A stretch of DNA of 64,000 nt. Origin: Methanoregula sp. (GTDB taxonomy: Archaea; Halobacteriota; Methanomicrobia; Methanomicrobiales; Methanospirillaceae). Position 1 is the first letter of the stretch. Every line of letters starts with the position of its first letter. The DNA lies in NCBI GenBank assembly GCA_026394605.1, contig JAPKXY010000040.1, positions 1 to 64,000 on the forward strand, written 5' to 3'. Made by a program: the position numbers and the translations under genes. Positions 4,370 through 24,772 of this stretch are shown here, piece after piece. The notes beneath the pieces are model-generated. The model was given only the letters and a program-made list of their open reading frames with translations. It was not told the origin of the DNA and ran no database searches.

Positions 4370-4515
4370 TATATGTATATGTCAAAGGGGCCCCGGCGAC
4401 GAACTAGAGAAAAATGGAGGTTCTGACGATCTCGGAACTCGAAGAATTCTGACGAATTCTTCTCGTCCTCGAGGTCTGAAGACCTCTTCGGAAAAACAAA
4501 AAGGAGGAAACACAA
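4370..4515 (+). promoter_or_regulatory. TATA box and hairpin-rich leader of the 4516 gene
   Basis: A strong archaeal TATA element (TATATGTAT, 4370-4378) predicts transcription from about 4400, leaving a leader of over 100 bases. The leader contains two perfect hairpins in series: GAAGAATTC-TGAC-GAATTCTTC (4441-4462) and GAGGTC-TGAA-GACCTC (4471-4486). These are followed by a strong AAAGGAGG ribosome-binding site just before the ATG. Such a leader suggests high expression or post-transcriptional control. Confidence 0.6.
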
Positions 4516-5019
4516 ATGGCAGATTTCGTACAGAGCAGCGAAACAAAAAACGCGGTCCGCAACCTTGCGGCCCCGATATCGGACGTGACAACGTTCGATG
4601 GTATCGTACAGTCGGTCATCACCACCAACCCCTTCGGGTGCGTGAACTACATGACCGCAGGAACAAACCACCCGGGGGTTGAGAAGACCCGGGAGAATTA
4701 CACGGGAAGAGTCGTGTACCAGGACGTGAACGCAAAGACCGTCGGGATCGGATCCCACCGGTTCAACAGCGTTGCCGGGTACACCGCAGGTGCAGCAGCC
4801 CTGATGGCAGCAGCCGGCCTGACTGCAGCCCATGCCGGCACACCGGCGCATGATGCAGGGGACGACTCGTTCTCCGCAACGCTCCGGTGCCACGACGCAA
4901 ACGGCGAGCTGTACAACCTCACGTTTGCCCGCGACCGGGTCACGCTCCAGTCCTACTCGGACGACGCGATCCGCACGAAGGTCGAGACCTGGGCAGACAC
5001 TGTCCCGGCCCTCGCGTAA
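4516..5019 (+). CDS. Conserved-looking unknown protein, 167 aa
   Basis: Begins MADFVQSSETKNAVRNLAAP and ends at an LA-TAA. It has no signal peptide. The middle (residues 85-112) is an Ala/Gly-rich segment (YTAGAAALMAAAGLTAAHAG) that could be a helix buried in an oligomer. The rest is mixed polar with regular strand-like stretches (ENYTGRVVYQDVNAKTVGIG, FSATLRCHDANGELYNLTF). Strong TATA, long structured leader and optimal ribosome-binding site imply an abundant protein. No family recognised. The 49-residue membrane protein at 5047 follows after 27 bases and is probably co-transcribed. Confidence 0.7.
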   Translation: MADFVQSSETKNAVRNLAAPISDVTTFDGIVQSVITTNPFGCVNYMTAGTNHPGVEKTRENYTGRVVYQDVNAKTVGIGSHRFNSVAGYTAGAAALMAAAGLTAAHAGTPAHDAGDDSFSATLRCHDANGELYNLTFARDRVTLQSYSDDAIRTKVETWADTVPALA

Positions 5020-5046
5020 GCGAAGAATTCGTGAAGGTGAACGGAT

Positions 5047-5196
5047 ATGGTCGAAAATGAGATCCTGATCACGGGATTATTCCTTGGGGCAGGCGTGCTC
5101 TCATATGTCGTTGTGCCCGGGCTCCTGGTCATCTGGGACCGGGTGCTCGATCACATGGGCAGGACCGGAAAAGGCGGGGAAGTACAAAAGCCTTAA
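5047..5196 (+). CDS. Small single-pass membrane protein, 49 aa
   Basis: MVENEILITGLFLGAGVLSY begins the protein. Residues 6-30 form one transmembrane helix, followed by a basic cytoplasmic-type tail (DRVLDHMGRTGKGGEVQ). It is preceded by GTGAAGGTGA. The C-terminal codons and downstream terminator are duplicated near 7570-7690 in the chimeric pseudogene, showing that this gene was the left border of the tandem duplication described at 5.2-10.4 kb. Confidence 0.6.
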   Translation: MVENEILITGLFLGAGVLSYVVVPGLLVIWDRVLDHMGRTGKGGEVQKP

Positions 5197-5202
5197 AGAG
5201 AG

Positions 5203-5258
5203 GCAGGGGGATTATTCCCCTGCTTTATTTTTTTAAATAATACACTGTTGACAGTGTA
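5203..5258. terminator. Bidirectional terminator with two hairpins
   Basis: GCAGGGG-N7-CCCCTGC (5203-5223) followed by a T tract, then TACACTGT-TG-ACAGTGTA (5241-5258) followed by seven T. It lies between convergent genes. The first hairpin is duplicated at 7660-7680. Confidence 0.7.
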
Positions 5259-5319
5259 ACTTTTTTTAAAAAACCGGCCTCAACACTGCTGCGTTGAAAA
5301 AAAAATATTCAGGTTCCCG

Positions 5320-7314
5320 TTAGTACGGCACGCAGACGCCCCAGATGCATACACCCAGACACTGGTGCCCGCATGTCCCGCAGTGGTTCCTGTTAAACAT
5401 CAGGTCCGTGCACCCGGGGCCATCGCACCAGTGCGTATTTGCCGGGCAGGCCTCCTCGCACCAGCCGTCCACGCAGGTCTTGTGCAGGTTGCACGCCCAG
5501 CCGCAGCCCCCGCAGTTGAGCGAGTCGGTCCGCTTGTCACTGCAGACACGGCCGCCCACCGATTCATTAAAACAGCGGTTTTCGTAGATATAACCGATAC
5601 CACAGGATCCCCCGCACACCCCGTTGACACAGAGATCCTGTCCCTCGCAGCTGATACCGCAGCCCCCGCAGTTCAGGGGATCGATTAACGGGTCGTCGCA
5701 GGTTCCGTCATTCTGGCAGTCCATGGACCCGGCCGGGCAGGAATTTGAGCAGGCACCATTGATACAGTACTGGCCGGCAGCGCACGCGGTCCCGCAGGCA
5801 CCGCAGTTCTGCCGGTCGATCTGGACATTCTTGCAGGACCCGTCCCCGCAGTTCCGGTAACCGTACGGGCATTCATACACGCAGGACGCGCCCTGTGATT
5901 GCTCATAACGCCTGCACTCGAATCCCGCAGGGCAGGGCTGGCAATTGGTCTCGCAGTGCGACCGGGTCCCCAGCTCGACGCAGGCGCCGTTGCACAGGCC
6001 GTACCCCTCCGGGCACGTGCACTGGTGGTTGGTGCAGATCCCGCCCGGCGGGCAGGTATTCCCGCAGAACCCGCAGTCCTGGGGGCTCTCGGGTATACAC
6101 GTGTTATCGCTGCAGAGGACAGATCCCGCCGTGCAGCTCTGCCTGCACAGGCCGTTTGCGCAGTGCGTCCCGCTGGCGCATATGATATTGCAGCCACCGC
6201 AGTTGTCGTCATTGATCAATTGAGACGTGGATGTAATCCACCATTGAACGCCATTGGAATCAGTGCAGATCATGCCGCACTCGGCAAACGTCGGACCGAA
6301 TTGGCAGGTCATTCCGTTCGGGCATGCATCCCCGCAGAACCTGCAGTTGGCATCCCTTCCCTGATAGGGCCAGATGATACAGCTGCCATCGCAGCACACT
6401 CCTTCCATGCATATGCTCCCGCACTGGCCGCAGTTGTTCGGGTCCGATTCAAGATCGATGAGGGTCCCCCCGCAGTTGCTGCGGCACAGGCCATCGCCGC
6501 ACTGTGTCCCGGCCAGGCAGTGGTGGAAGCATGCCCCGCAGTGGTAATCATTGTTAAAACTCACGTACCCGTTGCCGCAGTCATGGTACTCCGGGGCGAT
6601 GCTGTCGGCGCAGGCCCCGTTAAAGCAGGATTTTCCCGCAGGGCACTGGTACCCGCACTGCCCGCAGTTGTTGTTGTCAGTATGCAGGTTGGCTTCACCG
6701 GACGGGCAGGAAGAAACACACTTCCCGTTGGAACAGTGCTGGTCTGCCTCACAGGTCTGCCCGCAGTACCCGCAGTTGCGGGCATCGATCTTTGTATCGA
6801 CACAGGTCCCGCCGCATTTCGTTGTGGGGGCTAAGCAGTACGTTGCCGCCGTCCCCTGGGCCATGGTCATAAAGGCCACCGGTTTCGTGGCAAACGGCAG
6901 CGGGGTAGCGATCGCAAGGTTCGTCATTTTCTGGGGCGAGAGGGCAGGGATTGGGGATACTTTCCCTGTTGTGGCCGCCGTTGGCCCGGGCGTGACGGCA
7001 GTCACCTGCGGCGTTACCGGACTGACGGGTGTTGCAACCGTCGTCTGGGCTGCTGTCTGCACGGTCCGTACCGGGCTGGCCACCAGAACCGGGGTCGTCG
7101 AAACATTCACCGGCGCTTTTGTTGCCACCTGCAGGGAAACAAATCCCAGGAAAAACCCGTAACCAATCCCGGATTCACCGCGGGTTGTCTGGCTGCCTCC
7201 CCCACCTGCCAGGCAGGGAGAAACGAGAAGAGCGCTGACCAGCAGCGCAACTGCGATACGCCGGACAAGAGCAGGCTGGCAGGGTGCCTGGTGTCCGGTT
7301 GAGAACCTGTTCAT
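5320..7314 (-). CDS. Secreted cysteine-repeat protein A
   Basis: 664 residues. The signal peptide spans about residues 18-37 (VRRIAVALLVSALLVSPCLA). A Thr/Pro/Val-rich linker of about 120 residues follows. The rest, from about residue 160 to the end, is a long array of cysteine-rich units of form NCGxCGxxCxxGxxCxxGxC-(S/P)-xCPxG, each about 35-45 residues, resembling the Stig1-type and related disulfide repeats of surface proteins. It is probably extracellular and either disulfide-bonded or metal-binding. A paralogue (7743-9626) has the same signal peptide, linker and repeats. The ATG is 47 bases from the divergent start at 7362, so the two share a promoter region. Confidence 0.85.
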   Translation of the reverse strand: MNRFSTGHQAPCQPALVRRIAVALLVSALLVSPCLAGGGGSQTTRGESGIGYGFFLGFVSLQVATKAPVNVSTTPVLVASPVRTVQTAAQTTVATPVSPVTPQVTAVTPGPTAATTGKVSPIPALSPQKMTNLAIATPLPFATKPVAFMTMAQGTAATYCLAPTTKCGGTCVDTKIDARNCGYCGQTCEADQHCSNGKCVSSCPSGEANLHTDNNNCGQCGYQCPAGKSCFNGACADSIAPEYHDCGNGYVSFNNDYHCGACFHHCLAGTQCGDGLCRSNCGGTLIDLESDPNNCGQCGSICMEGVCCDGSCIIWPYQGRDANCRFCGDACPNGMTCQFGPTFAECGMICTDSNGVQWWITSTSQLINDDNCGGCNIICASGTHCANGLCRQSCTAGSVLCSDNTCIPESPQDCGFCGNTCPPGGICTNHQCTCPEGYGLCNGACVELGTRSHCETNCQPCPAGFECRRYEQSQGASCVYECPYGYRNCGDGSCKNVQIDRQNCGACGTACAAGQYCINGACSNSCPAGSMDCQNDGTCDDPLIDPLNCGGCGISCEGQDLCVNGVCGGSCGIGYIYENRCFNESVGGRVCSDKRTDSLNCGGCGWACNLHKTCVDGWCEEACPANTHWCDGPGCTDLMFNRNHCGTCGHQCLGVCIWGVCVPY

Positions 7315-7361
7315 GGACGAAACTATAATTGTAACCTGATAAATAGTATCGCAGGCTGGCT
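7315..7361. promoter_or_regulatory. Divergent promoter region, copy 1
   Basis: The 47 bases between the two divergent starts contain CTATAATTGTAACCTGATAAATAGTAT, nearly identical to the corresponding stretch at 9627-9673. TATA-like elements face both ways (TATAATTG and ATAAATAG). Confidence 0.55.
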
Positions 7362-7650
7362 ATGAAGGTTCCTGGGCATTTCGTTGCCTATCTCCTGCTG
7401 GCCACGCTCGTTCTCCTTCTTCGCATTGCTCTCGGTGTCCTCCAGTCCTCAGGTACCCGGCCTGCTCCTGCCCCGTTCAATGCCAGTACGGTACGGGGGG
7501 AAGTACCAGTTCTCCGTCACGGTACAGGCTCCCCGCCTGCAGGGTGTTTTCCCCCGCGAGCGGGGACGACGGCCGGGCGTCATCATCCCCGGGCTGCTGG
7601 ACTTCCGGGACCGGGTGCCCGATTCCATGGGGCCAGGGGCACAGGAATAA
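7362..7650 (+). pseudogene. Chimeric pseudogene at the tandem-duplication joint
   Basis: The 5' part (7362 to about 7550) copies the start of the SpoIIM-like gene at 9674: MKVPGHFVAYLLLATLVLLL against MKGPEHFVHYFLLVTLVLLL, then, after a frameshift, RYGGKYQFSVTVQAPRLQGVFP against ERYVFHATVVVPRMTHVYP. From about 7570 it becomes a copy of the 3' end of the small membrane gene at 5047 (PGLLDFRDRVPDSMG against PGLLVIWDRVLDHMG), including the same terminator. It is therefore the scar of an unequal duplication and not a working gene. Confidence 0.8.
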
Positions 7651-7659
7651 GAACACAGG

Positions 7660-7687
7660 GCAGGGGATGAATTCCCCTGCTTTTTTA
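7660..7687. terminator. Terminator hairpin, duplicated copy
   Basis: GCAGGGG (7660-7666) pairs with CCCCTGC (7674-7680) and is followed by six T. It matches the hairpin at 5203-5223, and the flanking AAAAAACCGGCC-CAACACTGCTG is also shared. Confidence 0.7.
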
Positions 7688-7742
7688 TAAAAAACCGGCC
7701 ACAACACTGCTGCCGTTAAAAAAAATTATCCTGGTTCTTCCA

Positions 7743-9626
7743 TCAATACGGTATGCACATGCCCCAGATGCATACACCCCATACCTCCACGCACTGGTGC
7801 CCGCAGGCACCGCAGTTGACCTTATCGAACCAGATATCCACACAACCTATGCCATTACAGAATGTCCCCTCCGAACAGCCGGTCACGCACTGGCCGTTTT
7901 CGCAGATCTCGTTCTCAAAGCAGGTTCTGTCACAGGCACCGCAGTGCCGGGGATCCGTTGCAAGGTTCCTGCAGGAGCGGTCACACTGCGTCTGCCCCTG
8001 CGGGCAGGTGGAGACGCACTGGCCGTTGACGCAGATCGTGTTATAATTGCAGGGGGTATAACACGAACCGCAGAACGAGTTGTCATTATGGAGGTTGCGG
8101 CAGTCATGGTTCCCCATGCAGTCCTCGTATCCTGCCGGGCAGGTCGAGGTGCACTGGCCGTTTATGCACATCTGCCCGTCCCCGCAGGCATTCCCGCATG
8201 CCCCGCAGTTCTGCCGGTCACCGGTAGTATACTCGCATACCCCGCCACAGGTGGCATATCCGTACAGACAGCCCACGCAGTCACCAGATTCGCACATCTG
8301 CCCTTGCGGGCACTGGTTTTGGCAGGCACCGCAGTTTGCCTCATCACCATCCATGACATTCGTCACGCTCCCGGAGCAGATGACAAGGCAGTGCCCGTCA
8401 ACACAGGCGAGCCCGTTCTGGCAGGCATTCCCGCAGGTGCCGCAGTTGGCCGGGTCTGTATCTGGATTCACGCACTGCCCGTTGCACATCCTGTCTTTGT
8501 CAGTACCATGGCACACGCAGTACCCGTTACTGCAGATTGCATTAGCCGGGCAGGTGATCCCGCAGCCGCCACAGTTCAGCGTGTCATTTTCGGTCCGGAT
8601 ACACTGCCCGTTACAGAACGAGTCATCCCTGCTGCATGTGCACTGGTGGAGGTATTCTTCGCAGACCATGTATGGCCGGCAGGTATTGCCACAGGAACCA
8701 CAGTTCGTGGTTGTCCAGTCCGGCATACACATCCCTTCACAGACGATGAACGTGGGTGGGCACTGGTTCGGATTGGTCGGACCACCAACCACCTGAACGC
8801 AGGTGCTGTTCCTGCAGGCCTGGTCGATCCGGCAGTGCCTGCCGCACTGCCCGCAGTTGGCCCAGCTCGATGTCATATCGGCACAGATGCCATTGCAGCA
8901 TGACTGGTTGAGCTGGCATTGGAAGTTGCATGCACCGCAGTGGTTCCAGTTGTGGTCCATGTCGACACAGTTGCTTCCGCTGCAATAGGTGTAGTTCCCT
9001 GAGCAGCGAGGCTTGCATATTCCATTATTGCACCAATTATCTTCAGGGCATTGAATGCCGCAACCGCCGCAGTTGGAGTCCATTTCGTTGTAGTTCACAC
9101 AGTGCCCGTCGCAGCACATCCCGTACGGGCAGACGGTGCCGCACTGCCCGCAGTTGCTTTTGTCAGTCTTCGTGTTGACGCAGGACCCCCCGCACTGAAT
9201 ATTGGGGAAGACACAGAAAATCCGGCTGGTCTCAAAGGCGATGCTGGTGAGTGCCGGCATGACGGTGGGCCGGAGGGTGACGGAAAACGGTTGTGTCGTG
9301 ACAACATGCACGCCCTCCGGGGGTTGCTGGGGCGGGGCAGGGGGAGATGTCGTTTGGGTTGTCTGCGGTGCAAGCGTCGTTACCGGGAGTACCGCCACAA
9401 CCGGGGTCGTCGAAACATTCACCGGCGCTTTTGTCGCCACCTGCAGGGGGGCAAATCCGAGGAAAAACCCGTACCCCGCCACGGAATCACCATCAGTTGT
9501 CTGGCTGCCGCCCCCACCTGCCAGGCAGGGCGGAACGAGAAGAGCGCAGACCAGCAGGGCAGCTGCGATACCCTGGACAAGAGCAGGCTGAAAAGAAGCC
9601 TGGTGTCCGGTCGAGAACCTGTTCAT
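7743..9626 (-). CDS. Secreted cysteine-repeat protein B
   Basis: 627 residues, paralogous to protein A at 5320-7314. The first 37 residues are nearly the same (MNRFSTGHQA..QPALV..IA.ALLV.ALLV.PCLAGGGGSQTT), followed by a Thr/Pro/Val linker and then about ten cysteine units with the NCG.CG..C..G..C..G.C pattern. Both proteins end in the related motif W-GVCIWGxCxPY. The repeats have diverged far more than the signal peptide and flanking DNA, which suggests diversifying selection or repeat turnover in the exposed part. Likely secreted to the cell surface; ligand unknown. Confidence 0.85.
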   Translation of the reverse strand: MNRFSTGHQASFQPALVQGIAAALLVCALLVPPCLAGGGGSQTTDGDSVAGYGFFLGFAPLQVATKAPVNVSTTPVVAVLPVTTLAPQTTQTTSPPAPPQQPPEGVHVVTTQPFSVTLRPTVMPALTSIAFETSRIFCVFPNIQCGGSCVNTKTDKSNCGQCGTVCPYGMCCDGHCVNYNEMDSNCGGCGIQCPEDNWCNNGICKPRCSGNYTYCSGSNCVDMDHNWNHCGACNFQCQLNQSCCNGICADMTSSWANCGQCGRHCRIDQACRNSTCVQVVGGPTNPNQCPPTFIVCEGMCMPDWTTTNCGSCGNTCRPYMVCEEYLHQCTCSRDDSFCNGQCIRTENDTLNCGGCGITCPANAICSNGYCVCHGTDKDRMCNGQCVNPDTDPANCGTCGNACQNGLACVDGHCLVICSGSVTNVMDGDEANCGACQNQCPQGQMCESGDCVGCLYGYATCGGVCEYTTGDRQNCGACGNACGDGQMCINGQCTSTCPAGYEDCMGNHDCRNLHNDNSFCGSCYTPCNYNTICVNGQCVSTCPQGQTQCDRSCRNLATDPRHCGACDRTCFENEICENGQCVTGCSEGTFCNGIGCVDIWFDKVNCGACGHQCVEVWGVCIWGMCIPY

Positions 9627-9673
9627 GGACGAACCTATAATTGTAACCTGATAAATAGTATCGCAGGCTGGCT
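9627..9673. promoter_or_regulatory. Divergent promoter region, copy 2
   Basis: Same 47-base arrangement as 7315-7361, with CTATAATTGTAACCTGATAAATAGTATCGCAGG between the divergent starts of the cysteine-repeat protein and the SpoIIM-like gene. Confidence 0.55.
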
Positions 9674-10357
9674 ATGAAGGGTCCTGAGCATTTCGTACAC
9701 TATTTCCTGCTGGTCACACTCGTTCTCCTTCTCGGTATCGGCATCGTCGTCCTCAAGACCGTTGTGACGAGACCGGATCTGGCGCCGTACAATGCCCCGG
9801 AACTGAACGAGCGGTATGTGTTCCACGCAACTGTTGTGGTCCCGCGGATGACCCATGTCTACCCGCAGCTCCTGCTCAGCAACGCCGGTGTCGCGCTCTT
9901 TATCCTCATCGTCCCACTGTACTGGGCCTGGATATGGTGGTTCCGGCGCGATCTTCTTCCCTTGGTCCTTCTCCTCATGCAGGAGACTGTGTTCGTGCTG
10001 GTCGCAGCGCTCGGCCATACCTCGTTTATCAGGGCCTGGGCCTGGTACAAAACCCTGCCGCCCGGCGTTGTCACGACCCTGTAGTATCCCCATGGCATCC
10101 TGGAGATGCTGGCGTTCATCCTCGCCGGCACGTTTTCGCTCCTCTGCATCAGGGACCTTGGCGAGTACCTGTGCACTGCGGGAGGACTGCCCGCCCTTCA
10201 CCCCGGGGGGATCCCCCTGTTCATTGTCCGCGGGACGTGGCGCGCTTTTCTCGTGATCCTCGCCCTGCTTGCGGTTGCTGCGGCCATCGAGTGCTCTATG
10301 ACACCGCTCATGGTCAAATCTGCGTATGAAGCAGCGATAGCAGGCATGCAGGCATGA
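9674..10357 (+). CDS. SpoIIM/DUF95-like membrane protein with an in-frame TAG
   Basis: One frame of 227 codons interrupted by TAG at 10082-10084 (codon 137). Before it, the protein has a first helix (HYFLLVTLVLLLGIGIVVLK) and two more hydrophobic segments. Directly after it the frame continues YPHGILEMLAFILAGTFSLL, which carries the PHGxxE signature of the SpoIIM/DUF95 family, then two more helices to the TGA at 10355. The membrane topology is complete only if both halves are joined. It could be a pseudogene with an amber mutation, two separate polypeptides (restart at ATG 10106), readthrough, or pyrrolysine insertion. Pyrrolysine use is not known as a general trait of Methanomicrobiales. Confidence 0.7.
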
Positions 10358-11823: not shown

Positions 11824-13848
11824 TTACGGGTACTGGCTGAAGACATCGTTCACCCTCCGTTCACATGCCTCCTCAAACTGGCACATCGGGTCCCCGGGGC
11901 CACAGCTCGCCAGTATCGCCCGGTCGCAGGACTGCGAGCATGCCATGATGCAGTGGGGGGGATCGATGTCCCAGAAACCCGTCCCGCAGTTCCCGCTCCC
12001 TGCCGGGCAGAAATTATCACAGTCGTCCGGGTCCCAGCCCATGGCGTTTGCATCATTCCGGCAGTTGTTCCTGCTGGACCAGATGTTGGGATTGGGATCA
12101 TTCTGTCTGTAGCCGCTGTCACAGCAGTATTCATCCTTGACCCCAAACAGGGAATGCCCGCTCTCATGGACAAACGTGCGGTAGCTCGTGGGCTCCGAGG
12201 TGAAGACCCGTCTCCCGCACCTCTGGCCTGCCCAGTCGCGGAAGCCGGTCACGTGCACAACCGCGATTGAATCCGCAAAGGTCGTCGCGTCCTGGAACGA
12301 CTCGCAGGAGTCCAGCGGGGGCGTAAATAGGGCACCATCATCAAAGCCCGTGACATCCGCCTCGTCATTCAGGTAATAGAAGTTGAACTTGGTGCGGTTC
12401 TGCTCAACCGCCGTGTTCCGTAAATACCCGTTGATGATCGTGTCCTGCACATCCCGGCTGAGCCGGGCCATGTCCCCGCCATAGTCAATGTCGGGAATGA
12501 ACACGACATCGATCTTGTCGTCGGGTCTGCCGGCGATGCGCAGGGGGATCACGTGCTCCCCGCACCAGGTGCACGGGGTGCAGGCCGGGCAGTACGCACC
12601 CCCACAGTCGATCTGCTGCTCGTCGCGGTTCATGAGGTTGTCATCACAGGAGCCGAACCACACGGTGGCAGATCCCCACCGCTCGTTGCCCCCCGGGTCA
12701 CAGACGCGTGCCCTGATATCGATCCGTGCGAGGCCGTTCATGGAAACCGAAACAGAATCCGACCATGATGACGGCACATCCCCGGCCTTACGCACCGGCT
12801 TAGGTTCGGGCGTCAGCGCCGGTGAAGAGGACGGAGGCCGGGTGCCGTCGGTTTTGAAAAACTCGAGCGTTGCGGTCATGCTGGCAATGGAGACGTCATC
12901 CTGCCCCCGGATCGTCACCCGGATATCCTCGTCGATCCGCGGCAGGGGCGGCGTTGACAAAATTTCCACTTCCGGGACATGAGAGTCCTGGGGGACATAG
13001 GTGAAATCCCAGCCGGTCTGGTCCACGTCGTCCATGCTGACCTCGGTCCCCCGTAACGGGGTAAATGTGCCGGTCCACGGGCAGACACCGGCAACGGGCT
13101 GGTAGACCGGGACGACCTCGACTACCCCGTTACAGGATGCGATGCCCGTGTAGGTGTAATGGGAGACAAGGTCGCCGGCCATGACCGGCGATACGCTCAC
13201 GTAAGCCGGTGGAACGCCGGCAGGGGTGAACCTCACCTTCAGGCTGCTGGTATTTTTGTAAAACCCAAAGATGTCGCCGGAGATCATGCAGCGACGGCTT
13301 GCCGTCACGGCGATTCCCGGCGCGGTCATAGCCAGGGTGATCACTGGCGCGGTGACTCCCGGCGCGGTGACAGCCAGGGTCACCGGCAGCATGACCGGGG
13401 TCGGCAGGGCCGGGGTTGTTACGGTTTTTTCATAGCAGTACTTCTCGTTTTTCATCGTATCGTACGCGCAGAGGGTCTGCTTACCGGCACAGAGGGCATA
13501 CCCCTGCTGCTTTCCCTCTTCCGGGGTGTAGCAGCTGCACCCGGACGGGCAGGTCACCGGTACCGGTGCCGTGGGAACCATGGGCGTGACGAACGGCTTT
13601 GTCGTGGTCAGGAAAGGGACGGTCGTTACGGTTTTTTCATAGCAGTACTTCTCGTTTTTCATCGCATCGTACCCGCAGATTGCCTGCTTCCCGTTACAGT
13701 AGCCGGTATAGCCGAGCTTCTTGGCCTCGGCAGGGAGCAGGCAGGAGCAGTCTGAGGGACAGGTAACCGTTGCGGCAAGAACGGACGGTACAAGGAACGA
13801 TACAAGGAGAACACAGTAGATACAGGTCAGGATCAGGTGTTTTTTCAC
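11824..13848 (-). CDS. Secreted M64-like zinc metallopeptidase
   Basis: About 674 residues from GTG 13848 (preceded by GGTGGT; an earlier GTG at 13866 would spoil the signal peptide). The signal is VKKHLILTCIYCVLLVSFLV. Two copies of a small cysteine domain follow (CPSDCSCLLPAEAKKLGYTG and CPSGCSCYTPEEGKQQGYAL, each closing with KNEKYCYEKTVTT), then Thr/Pro/Val linkers and an Ig-like region. The catalytic part holds FVHESGHSLFGVKDEY near residue 559-574: HExxH with a following DEY, as in IgA-peptidase M64 enzymes. The C-terminus is cysteine-rich. Likely an extracellular protease or adhesin-processing enzyme; substrate unknown. Confidence 0.8.
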   Translation of the reverse strand: MKKHLILTCIYCVLLVSFLVPSVLAATVTCPSDCSCLLPAEAKKLGYTGYCNGKQAICGYDAMKNEKYCYEKTVTTVPFLTTTKPFVTPMVPTAPVPVTCPSGCSCYTPEEGKQQGYALCAGKQTLCAYDTMKNEKYCYEKTVTTPALPTPVMLPVTLAVTAPGVTAPVITLAMTAPGIAVTASRRCMISGDIFGFYKNTSSLKVRFTPAGVPPAYVSVSPVMAGDLVSHYTYTGIASCNGVVEVVPVYQPVAGVCPWTGTFTPLRGTEVSMDDVDQTGWDFTYVPQDSHVPEVEILSTPPLPRIDEDIRVTIRGQDDVSIASMTATLEFFKTDGTRPPSSSPALTPEPKPVRKAGDVPSSWSDSVSVSMNGLARIDIRARVCDPGGNERWGSATVWFGSCDDNLMNRDEQQIDCGGAYCPACTPCTWCGEHVIPLRIAGRPDDKIDVVFIPDIDYGGDMARLSRDVQDTIINGYLRNTAVEQNRTKFNFYYLNDEADVTGFDDGALFTPPLDSCESFQDATTFADSIAVVHVTGFRDWAGQRCGRRVFTSEPTSYRTFVHESGHSLFGVKDEYCCDSGYRQNDPNPNIWSSRNNCRNDANAMGWDPDDCDNFCPAGSGNCGTGFWDIDPPHCIMACSQSCDRAILASCGPGDPMCQFEEACERRVNDVFSQYP

Positions 13849-14014
13849 ACGGCATACCACCAGCACTGGGGATAACAGGAATGAATAAGACGGGTTATAT
13901 GTATGTTTCTATTTCTGGTTCCGGGGAGGGGTGAAAAGGGAAAAATGAAGGTGGACCTGTTCTTCTGCAGGCAACGGTGGCGTTGCATTCTGGTGTTTTT
14001 GATAAAAAATCCAG

Positions 14015-14060: not shown

Positions 14061-15482
14061 ATGAAGAACGATTCCATCGTATTTCACGGTAACCTCCAAC
14101 AGTTACTGGCGAACGTGGAGACGGGCGAGATGATCCCCAAACTTCAGGCCTCGCACGCTCCCATGTGCAAATTTTTCACTGCATACTACGTCATCAGCGG
14201 CATCCGCCATGTTGTCCCCCTGGTGCACGGCCCGACCGGGTGCCCGTTATATATGTCTGACTTTGTCAGGACACGGGAGTGCTGCGAGATACGCGGTGTC
14301 CCACTCGAACCTACTGCCTGCACCGCCCTTGATGAAAGTCACGTCATCTACGGCGGTGAGGGAAAACTTTTGGAAGCAGTTAAGGAAGCATACGCAAAGT
14401 ATCACCCCGACCTCATCGTCATCCTCTCCTGCTGCTGTTCCGGGATCATCGGCGATGATGTCGAAAGCATTGCCCGCGAGGCAGAGAAGCTGGTTGGCTG
14501 CCGGGTGCTGGCGCTCAGGAGCGAGGGCTTTGGCGGCGACTTCCGGAGCGGCTATGAGGATGCGTTCCGGCTCATCCTGGACCTGATGGAGCCCCCAAAA
14601 AAGACAATGAAAGGGACGATCAACATCCTCGGGGCCCGCTGGGGCCCTACCCCCACGGAGTTCAACTGGGACATGGACGAGATCGAACGGCTCCTTGGAA
14701 ACGTCGGCATTAAGATCAACGCCATAATCGCAGGAGGATGCACCGTCGAGCAGATTACCCGTGCACGGGAGGTCGAACTGAATGCCTCGTGGTGCTATGA
14801 CTGGGGGCAGAAGCTGGGCGACCTGATGCAGGAACGGTACGGCATCCCCTACAGCAGGACCGGGCAGCCCTACGGGCCTGAGGCCACAAAGGAATGGATC
14901 CTTGGGGTAGCCACGCCTCTTGGCATGGAGAAAAAAGCGCTCGCGGTGATCGGGCGGGAGATGCGGGATGTGGAGCCGGACCTTGCCTACTTAAAAAAGG
15001 CCCTTTCAGGGAAGACGGCAATCATTGAAATATCAGAATTTCCCGGACCGATCCGGGCCCTCTCGCTGGCCCGGATGGCGGAGGAGTTTGGTGCCCACCC
15101 GGTCGTCATCAACGTCCATCCCTACACGATCAAGGAAAGGATGCCCAGCATCAAATTCCTGGTAGAGACCGGTGTCAACCCGGAGATCATCTTGACAAAA
15201 GGACTCTTCAAGCTGGGGAGCTTCCGCTCGTCAAAAGAGACCGAGGATGAGCTGGAGGAAATTGTCCGGACGTATGATGACGCCATCTTCTTTGGAAACG
15301 CCGGACGGTTCCCTCCCTGCCCGGTGGTGAACTTAACACTCATGAACCCGGTGTTCCAGCCCCAGTACGGCTTCCGGGGAATTACAAACATCGCTGCCCT
15401 GGTCAGGCAGGCACTGGAGAACAAAGACCTCCCGCGCTCGCGGTTGTTTAAGGGGATGCTCTATGGGACAAGGACGAAGTAA
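14061..15482 (+). CDS. NifD-like subunit of an uncharacterised nitrogenase-like reductase
   Basis: 473 residues of the oxidoreductase/nitrogenase component 1 family. P-cluster-type cysteines are visible as HAPMC (Cys36), GPTGC (Cys61) and the CCCSGIIGDD motif (Cys124-126), matching NifD Cys62, Cys88 and Cys154. LNASWCYDWGQ puts Cys245 where NifD has the FeMo-cofactor ligand Cys275. At the expected position of the second ligand (NifD His442) the sequence reads LMNPVFQPQYGFRG with no histidine. The product should be a catalytic subunit that binds an [8Fe] or simpler cluster and an unknown substrate or cofactor. It overlaps the NifK-like gene by 20 bases. It is unlikely to be CfbD, because that enzyme has no NifK partner. 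Confidence 0.85.
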   Translation: MKNDSIVFHGNLQQLLANVETGEMIPKLQASHAPMCKFFTAYYVISGIRHVVPLVHGPTGCPLYMSDFVRTRECCEIRGVPLEPTACTALDESHVIYGGEGKLLEAVKEAYAKYHPDLIVILSCCCSGIIGDDVESIAREAEKLVGCRVLALRSEGFGGDFRSGYEDAFRLILDLMEPPKKTMKGTINILGARWGPTPTEFNWDMDEIERLLGNVGIKINAIIAGGCTVEQITRAREVELNASWCYDWGQKLGDLMQERYGIPYSRTGQPYGPEATKEWILGVATPLGMEKKALAVIGREMRDVEPDLAYLKKALSGKTAIIEISEFPGPIRALSLARMAEEFGAHPVVINVHPYTIKERMPSIKFLVETGVNPEIILTKGLFKLGSFRSSKETEDELEEIVRTYDDAIFFGNAGRFPPCPVVNLTLMNPVFQPQYGFRGITNIAALVRQALENKDLPRSRLFKGMLYGTRTK

Positions 15483-16821
15483 ACGGGCAGCCGGAGCGGA
15501 GACGCCGGTGCCTGATACATGCACAGACCCGTACCTCCGGTGTGCATTCAACGGCGCTGCCCAGACGGCACTGGGGGTTGCCGGTTCCGCCCTGCTCGCC
15601 CATTCACCGCAGGGATGCGAGTACCTTGTCAACAACGCATTTGCCTCTCAGGAGTGCGATTACATGGAGACAATGACACTCTGCACCAAATTATGCGTGG
15701 ATGAGATCGTGCACGGCGGCGAGGACCTCCTTGCCCGTACGATCCGTGAAGCAAAGGATCTCCCCATCTCCGCCCTGTTCGTGATCAGCGCATGCGGGCC
15801 CGAGATTGTCGGTGACGACATCGTGGGGGTATGTGAGGATATGCAGCCGGAGGTGAAGTTCAGGCTCGTTCCTGTCCCGTGCGCCGGGTTCAGGGGGTCG
15901 CAGTACGACGGCATCGACATCGCACTGGATGAAATAGTAAAGAGATGTACAAAAAACACCAAAGAGAAGATACCGGATTCCGTGTGCCTTATTGCCCCCC
16001 ACGCAAATGCCAACCCGACATGGATTGCAGACCTGGATTGGGTACAACGGATCCTTTCGCAGATGGGCGTCCGGGTTGTTGCCACGCTCACGCACAGGAC
16101 GCCCCTTGCTGAGATTGAGAACGCGGCATCTGCCGAGACATCCCTTGTGGTAAGCCACGACGCCGGACAGAAAGCAGCGGATTATCTTTCTGCGACCTGG
16201 GGCACCGAACAGGTCTGCACGGGGATACCATTGCCGATCGGCATGACCAATACCCAGCGCTGGCTGACCACCTTGGGGGAGCGGTTTGATGCGCAGAAAG
16301 CAGCGGAGAGCATGGTTGCGGAAGGCGAGAGGATGGTGATGGCGACGTGCCGGCGCAAGTGGCCGATGGCACGGTTCTTGTACCGGACACCTGCTGCGAT
16401 TGTCGCCGATGCGACGGTCGGGATCCCGCTCGTCCGGTTTGTCTGCGAGGATATGGAGATGACACCGGAACTCGTTGCCCTGTACACCTCCCAGCGTACG
16501 GTCCGCACACTGCTGGAACGGGAACTAAAAGAACTCGGGCTTACCCCAAAAGTCGTGTACGGCACTGACGTGTACACGACGAGGAAAAGTCTGGCCGAGG
16601 TACGGCCGCGGGTCGTGTTCGGGAGCACGATCGAACGGCACGCCAGTGAGGGGCTGGGGGTGTCGTATATTGTTGAGGTGGTAAAGATGATGCGCCAGTT
16701 CAGGATGATTAACAGGGAATACTTCGGGTATACCGGCATTCTGAACCTTTTTGAGTGTGTCCAGAACGAGTGGACGATGGGATGGCGCTCAAAGGAGAGA
16801 AGCTACAAGGCGAAGTGGTGA
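15463..16821 (+). CDS. NifK-like subunit of the nitrogenase-like reductase
   Basis: 452 residues. The three P-cluster cysteine positions of NifK are present: RCAFNGA (Cys27), SPQGCEY (Cys52) and SACGPEIVGDD (Cys111), corresponding to NifK Cys70, Cys95 and Cys153. The rest follows the component-1 fold, with ISQ-like strands such as TSLVVSHDAGQKAADYLSA. The start overlaps the NifD-like gene by 20 bases and the TGA is eight bases before the NifH-like ATG, so stoichiometric coupled expression is expected. With the NifD-like chain it should form an alpha2-beta2 heterotetramer. No NifE/NifN/NifB gene lies nearby. Confidence 0.85.
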   Translation: MGQGRSKRAAGAETPVPDTCTDPYLRCAFNGAAQTALGVAGSALLAHSPQGCEYLVNNAFASQECDYMETMTLCTKLCVDEIVHGGEDLLARTIREAKDLPISALFVISACGPEIVGDDIVGVCEDMQPEVKFRLVPVPCAGFRGSQYDGIDIALDEIVKRCTKNTKEKIPDSVCLIAPHANANPTWIADLDWVQRILSQMGVRVVATLTHRTPLAEIENAASAETSLVVSHDAGQKAADYLSATWGTEQVCTGIPLPIGMTNTQRWLTTLGERFDAQKAAESMVAEGERMVMATCRRKWPMARFLYRTPAAIVADATVGIPLVRFVCEDMEMTPELVALYTSQRTVRTLLERELKELGLTPKVVYGTDVYTTRKSLAEVRPRVVFGSTIERHASEGLGVSYIVEVVKMMRQFRMINREYFGYTGILNLFECVQNEWTMGWRSKERSYKAKW

Positions 16822-24338: not shown

Positions 24339-24772
24339 GCATCCCCCCATACTTGAGGAATGTGCAGAGTTACATGTAACAATTTTTTCTGTCGTCATGC
24401 CGCCCTGCTCCCTGCGAATAGCGGTAAAAATTTGTTTTTCATGACAGGGATGTCTGACGATGCCGTCGTACGCCTCATCGGCATCCCCGTACTTTTTAAA
24501 AAATTATTTCTTTGTTAAATAATACACAGTTGATTGTGTGTTTTTTAGTCTGTTCCCCCGTCAGCTTCAGTCCGCCCAGCCCATCAAACGCCAGTCCCAT
24601 CCCCCGATGAATACACACCCCTTGAACGGCAGAGTGAACACCGGTTCAGACAGTACAAGTAATCATATAAAAAACAATAGAATTTGTCAACGGGGGAACG
24701 ATACTTTTGTTACCCTGTTTTTTTAAATTGGGGGTGTATCCTTATTCCCTGCATCTTTTTGGTGATGTGTTT
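24339..24772. other. AT-rich intergenic stretch with a terminator-like repeat
   Basis: No gene seen. TTAAATAATACACAGTTGATTGTGTGTTTTTT (about 24515-24546) is an inverted repeat followed by T and resembles the second terminator hairpin at 5233-5265 (TTAAATAATACACTGTTGACAGTGTA). Confidence 0.5.

Follow-up and report, generated by a model that had tools for sequence, protein, structure and literature searches.

The locus raises the question of how two neighbouring genes came to share a leader and a promoter region and to carry cysteine arrays that differ widely. A preliminary description of this DNA had proposed a tandem duplication, after which the exposed repeats changed faster than their flanks. 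The duplication is there, and the pattern of divergence between the two copies is a recombination mosaic.

The window, i.e., the whole stretch of 64,000 nucleotides that was analysed, is part of contig C7 of a 1.62 Mb assembly (60 contigs, 91.67% complete). The host is most likely a methanogen, as indicated by methyl-coenzyme M reductase alpha pieces on two other contigs, with 641 bits for the piece at a contig edge, below the family cut-off of 768. From 5047 to 10357, the order is gene A, Cys-repeat gene 1 (minus strand), a relic, Cys-repeat gene 2 (minus strand), and a SpoIIM-like gene, with the following features:

5047–5196, plus strand: small membrane gene A (49 aa), intact copy, an open reading frame (ORF) with similar stretches at many places in relatives and an ORF of such kind in L051; its membrane nature was read by eye.
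5106–5360, unstranded: 3′ similar tract, copy 1, which spans the terminator and the ends of gene A and Cys-repeat gene 1, 171/200 aligned bases identical, matching 7578–7788.
5200–5226, plus strand: terminator-like hairpin, copy 1, downstream of gene A, with a 28-nt match to 7659–7686 at 82%.
5228–5256, plus strand: dispersed motif TTTTTTTAAATAATACACTGTTGACAGTG, in copy 1 only (motif search).
5320–7314, minus strand: Cys-repeat gene 1 (664 aa) with leader, T/P-rich linker, and 12 cysteine units; PF04885 112.3 bits, NF041328 209.6 bits.
7083–7418, unstranded: 5′ similar tract, copy 1, covering codons of the leader, the divergent promoter, and the first codons of the SpoIIM-like gene, 297/336 identical, score reached by 0/200 shuffles.
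7315–7361, unstranded: 47-bp divergent promoter region, copy 1 (alignment with copy 2).
7362–7549, plus strand: remnant of the start of the SpoIIM-like gene, with a break in the frame near 7490; E 3.6e-7 over residues 1–44, 57%.
7578–7788, unstranded: 3′ similar tract, copy 2 (alignment with copy 1).
7579–7631, plus strand: relic of the gene A end, 79% over 53 nt; 17 codons, dN/dS 1.29.
7660–7680, unstranded: terminator-like hairpin, copy 2 (match to the copy 1 hairpin).
7743–9626, minus strand: Cys-repeat gene 2 (627 aa) with the same leader and a different 12-unit array; PF04885 182.5 bits, NF041328 257.9 bits.
9395–9730, unstranded: 5′ similar tract, copy 2 (change-point fit).
9627–9673, unstranded: 47-bp divergent promoter region, copy 2 (alignment with copy 1).
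9674–10357, plus strand: SpoIIM-like membrane protein gene of 227 codons, interrupted in frame by a single TAG at 10082–10084; read as an ORF, with uninterrupted relatives in G013 and G016 that pass PF01944.

Among the surrounding sequences, the dispersed motif AAATAATACA(C/G)TGTTGACNGTG lies at 5228–5256 (plus) and also at 24517–24538 (plus). Allowing at most two mismatches, it was found in 5/8 genomes of the genus, 24 times in total and six times in the own genome, with examples adjoining T-runs and no occurrence of the reversed control; a narrower first form of the pattern had matched in 1/41 genomes. The motif may serve as an operator or be a small repeat. Upstream, the 167-aa gene at 4516–5019 (region 4432–5196) reaches the cut-off of no family in Pfam, NCBIfam, or PHROGs, and its leader DNA together with gene A occurs in many copies in four genus genomes (G003–G006). 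Downstream, 11824–13866 (minus) encodes a 680-aa cysteine-containing protein with a leader-like start and a HESGH motif (metallopeptidase-like by eye), for which neither a Pfam family nor an NCBIfam match over the cut-off was obtained, and 14061–16821 (plus) holds two overlapping ORFs with, by eye, the look of nitrogenase-type component proteins.

Both Cys proteins exceed the gathering cut-off of PF04885 (Stig1; 24.1 bits) and the curated cut-off of NF041328 (MXAN_6577-like cysteine-rich protein; 100 bits). Their arrays contain 86 and 90 cysteines, in units of the form NCGxCGxxC...C..G.C; 12 units were counted in each, one degenerate unit of copy 1 being split by hand. By eye, each protein has an N-terminal hydrophobic leader and a T/P-rich linker and lacks a C-terminal membrane stretch, export too being read by eye. 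We infer that they may be chains of disulfide-bonded units, secreted or attached to the cell surface, with a binding or scaffolding function. A model of two units, for which 21 segments of the arrays in the window were used, had a mean pLDDT of 85.8 and short strand pairs. Its fold matches were weak, the best being the R-spondin Fu1-Fu2 repeats (Foldseek E 0.08; Z 2.8), and most of them fall in furin-like regions of the ectodomains of R-spondin, ErbB, and the insulin receptor. The whole-protein fold of Cys protein 2 (mean pLDDT 34.6) was left unused, and a sequence profile search of the PDB returned one match at chance level (E 0.12). The literature search on STIG1/MXAN_6577-type or Methanoregula cysteine-rich repeat proteins listed nothing on them in archaea; in PMC9839799, the matches were to the genus name and to peptide labels.

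The tandem duplication is confirmed: the unit formed by A, a minus-strand Cys-repeat gene, and the start of the SpoIIM-like gene is present twice. The similarity is in direct order, with an offset of 2312 for leader and promoter and of about 2420–2470 for the 3′ side. The repeat search gave three direct blocks (7064–7363/9376–9675 at 87%, 5261–5316/7682–7737 at 86%, and 5107–5159/7579–7631 at 79%), and blastn gave matches of 448 columns at 82% (E 1e-126; an extension of the first block), 135 columns at 78% (1e-25), and 44 columns at 84% (3e-8). At the joint, the alignment shows shared DNA, running over about 7362–7650 from the SpoIIM-like start into the A-like end, with the point of joining between about 7549 and 7579. 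The DNA there is composite, as was stated when it was called a chimeric scar gene, but it does not form one reading frame: the SpoIIM-like start is in the frame of 7362, while the frame of 7384 holds the remaining SpoIIM-like part as well as the A-like tail. Because the frame shifts near 7490 and the A-like tail is out of the frame of the SpoIIM-like ATG, the joint is not a working chimera but a dead relic. Its SpoIIM part presumably diverged while still a gene, since codons 16–44 show a dN/dS of 0.30 (dS 1.19; 29 codons, 4/12 fourfold sites changed). The first 15 SpoIIM codons have a dS of 0.19, and the A-like tail one of 0.21.

The description of terminators and divergent promoters as nearly identical holds for the promoters (49/50 bases, 7315–7364/9627–9676) and not for the 3′ side, where 171/200 is the sum over the alignment bins of 5106–5360 and copy 1 has an insertion of 36 columns. 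From position and near identity, the 47-bp divergent promoter region may place both Cys genes under shared control.

The original order A, Cys gene, SpoIIM was shown by no relative. Cys protein 2 was matched in 12 and the SpoIIM-like protein in 11 of 61 genomes (the own and 60 relatives). Five relatives have both (G001, G004, G016, G030, and G038), always on separate contigs or about 280 kb apart, and gene A with its upstream neighbour is dispersed across the genus; the order is therefore read from a single locus. The leader was found in 1/232 genomes of the order, namely the own, with no orthologue in the other 231.

The cysteine arrays do differ widely (45% identity over the whole Cys proteins), much more so than leader and promoter, as expected if selection sped up exposed repeats after a recent duplication. 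The silent sites speak against this explanation, which we regard as the least credible of those weighed here. By the Nei-Gojobori method with Jukes-Cantor correction, where a value above 1 says no more than that saturation is near, codons 1–76 have a dS of 0.25 and a dN of 0.10, the linker 1.43 and 0.70, the array 1.27 and 0.60, and the last 11 codons of the Cys genes a dS of 0.30. dS climbs with dN at one sharp step, and dN/dS is about equal over leader, linker, and array (0.40, 0.49, and 0.47), i.e., not clearly raised in the array. Part of the flank, SpoIIM codons 16–44, diverged as much as the array. Furthermore, the units are as unlike between the copies as within them: at the nucleotide level, identity averages 0.53 in each of three sets, namely the pairs within copy 1 (55), within copy 2 (66), and between the copies (132). 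Among the 132 between-copy pairs, none except the last is closer than the within-copy units, that pair being the only close one (83% over 21 codons). Nor do arrays of the Stig1 family evolve faster as a rule: in the one gene pair tested, from two other species (G002/G004), 31/58 leader and 189/310 array positions are identical.

The step between similar and dissimilar DNA is sharp. A change-point fit over 900 columns placed the 5′ tract at 7083–7418/9395–9730, with 297/336 identical columns (88%) against 296/564 in the remainder; the gain in log-likelihood was 66.7, the largest of 200 shuffles reaching 8.3. Beyond the tract, identity falls to 56% on the SpoIIM side and to 52% on the linker side. 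Synonymous differences number 16/76 sites in the tract, 16/27 in SpoIIM codons 16–44, and 184/300 in the array (Fisher test, tract vs SpoIIM codons, p 5e-4; tract vs array, p 2e-10; on rounded counts, with sites treated as independent and uncorrected for the number of tests).

An old duplication in which strong constraint, without any conversion, held the leader and promoter DNA constant would account for a promoter of 49/50 identical bases, promoter and leader being shared control elements. Such constraint must cover the silent sites of 76 codons, and even the first SpoIIM codons of the dead copy, and then end sharply; we judge this very unlikely.

The sister genome G001 provides a scale for these ages: the own genome differs from it at a dS of 0.68 for the methyltransferase gene downstream and of 0.47 for the SpoIIM remnant. 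Against these two genes, the 5′ tract (dS 0.25 over the 76 leader codons) is younger than the G001 split (p 9e-4 and 0.05), while SpoIIM codons 16–44 are as old as the split or older (p 0.2 and 0.03), and so is the array. The 5′ tract has the mark of concerted evolution, with much older divergence on both edges, the SpoIIM edge comprising 29 codons. Since the tract is younger than the G001 split and the array and the SpoIIM part are old, we favour, with a confidence slightly better than even, an old tandem duplication whose leader and promoter, and probably tail and terminator, were later homogenised by gene conversion. The unit of A, Cys gene, and SpoIIM start would have been duplicated long ago, after which the arrays and SpoIIM-like copies would have diverged, with their amino acids constrained, to a point where synonymous sites approached saturation. 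A short conversion tract of about 336 bp would later have copied leader, divergent promoter, and first SpoIIM codons between the copies, and a second short tract probably covered tail and terminator. As a result, control and export signals would be alike in both genes and the arrays different. The duplication, the sharp-edged mosaic, and the order of the divergences are observed directly; conversion as mechanism, its direction, and a protein role in cell-surface or extracellular binding or scaffolding are what we infer from them.

The 3′ side bears on this reading. The A-like tail and the 3′ flank look young, so the conversion reading needs the second tract, and taken by themselves they could equally mean a young duplication. 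Coherently with the latter, leader, last 11 codons, 3′ flank, and A-like tail all diverged by about 0.15–0.3, and the tail's dN/dS of 1.29 is as for a relic born at the duplication. The whole unit might then have been duplicated recently (divergence about 0.2–0.25), with one copy afterwards receiving a new linker, array, and inner SpoIIM part by recombination with an unknown donor, as a cassette exchanged between ends that stay constant. We hold this to be unlikely, while giving it appreciable weight. SpoIIM codons 16–44, outside the array, are equally old, although that age comes from 29 codons with few fourfold sites changed. The own genome has no other match that could be a donor array, and two genome-contig scans confirmed no donor array or named relatives; one viral scan likewise gave no named relatives. 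In addition, the order of the units is partly kept. With the last unit omitted, 32, 30, and 19 of 1,000 shuffles reached the observed score at three gap costs (control 950/1,000). The signal lies in the C-terminal half (12/1,000 shuffles) rather than the N-terminal half (406/1,000), and without the best pair it is not significant (143/1,000). The kept order weakly suggests a common descent of the arrays.

A single event could also have produced both the joint and the diverged arrays, if the locus was polymorphic between strains and recombination with incoming DNA left two divergent alleles in tandem; the divergence of the SpoIIM part would likewise be between alleles. As the leader is confined to one genome of the order, allelic diversity of this kind is invisible, and the sharp edges of the 5′ tract still call for earlier recombination, which leaves this merodiploid origin quite improbable. 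There is, finally, a slender possibility that the leader/promoter and tail/terminator tracts serve as recombination arms that exchange whole cysteine arrays between tandem copies or strains.

Under the favoured reading of old duplication and later conversion, the SpoIIM-like gene that remains is decaying. The stretch 9674–10357 is open for 227 codons except for the TAG, and its two pieces lack a PF01944 match at E 0.1 (cut-off 26.9 bits), whereas the uninterrupted relatives in G013 and G016 (44% and 42% identity) reach 43.8 and 28.4 bits. The remnant in G001 (L043 10484–11466) has lost its 5′ part, adjoins a toxin-antitoxin-like pair (named by eye), and carries two TAG. Pyrrolysine at the TAG was considered and rejected, no PylS exceeding the TIGR02367 cut-off in any of 11 genomes including the own (91.67% complete; controls 1/14), and the G001 remnant having a sense codon at the TAG site and its two TAG at other codons. 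The own and G001 copies would thus be decaying by separate changes.

More generally, identical flanks around different repeats need not mean fast-evolving repeats, and silent sites can reveal a mosaic. Compared with other proteins of NF041328 and PF04885, those described here share the scores above the curated cut-offs and the unit form NCGxCGxxC...C..G.C. They differ in a leader found nowhere else searched and in more heterogeneous arrays (mean pairwise unit identity 0.41–0.42 vs 0.52–0.55 in three relatives' genes).

In bacterial gene families, according to PMC8223754, conversion tracts extend over a few hundred nucleotides, and the antigenic variation systems that work by gene conversion have constant ends and a variable interior, as this locus does. 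In contrast to such systems, both copies here have a promoter region, a start, and a full frame, and the own genome holds two full copies only, with no silent promoterless donor cassettes. If population data bore out the exchange of arrays, this would be an archaeal surface-variation locus with constant ends and a variable array.

A parallel is already known in methanogens: PMC4632066 reports mtrA paralogues in which gene conversion has homogenised one domain while a second differs. Like mtrA-1 and mtrA-2 of Methanomicrobiales and Methanococcales, the Cys-repeat genes would be old methanogen duplicates with one segment homogenised and another distinct, and they are a candidate example of gene conversion that acted locally and kept the export and control signals of two otherwise old paralogues alike. 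In mtrA, it is a conserved enzyme domain that has been homogenised for a very long time and in many species, whereas here it would be leader, promoter, and tail in one genome, with the conversion read from two sequences.
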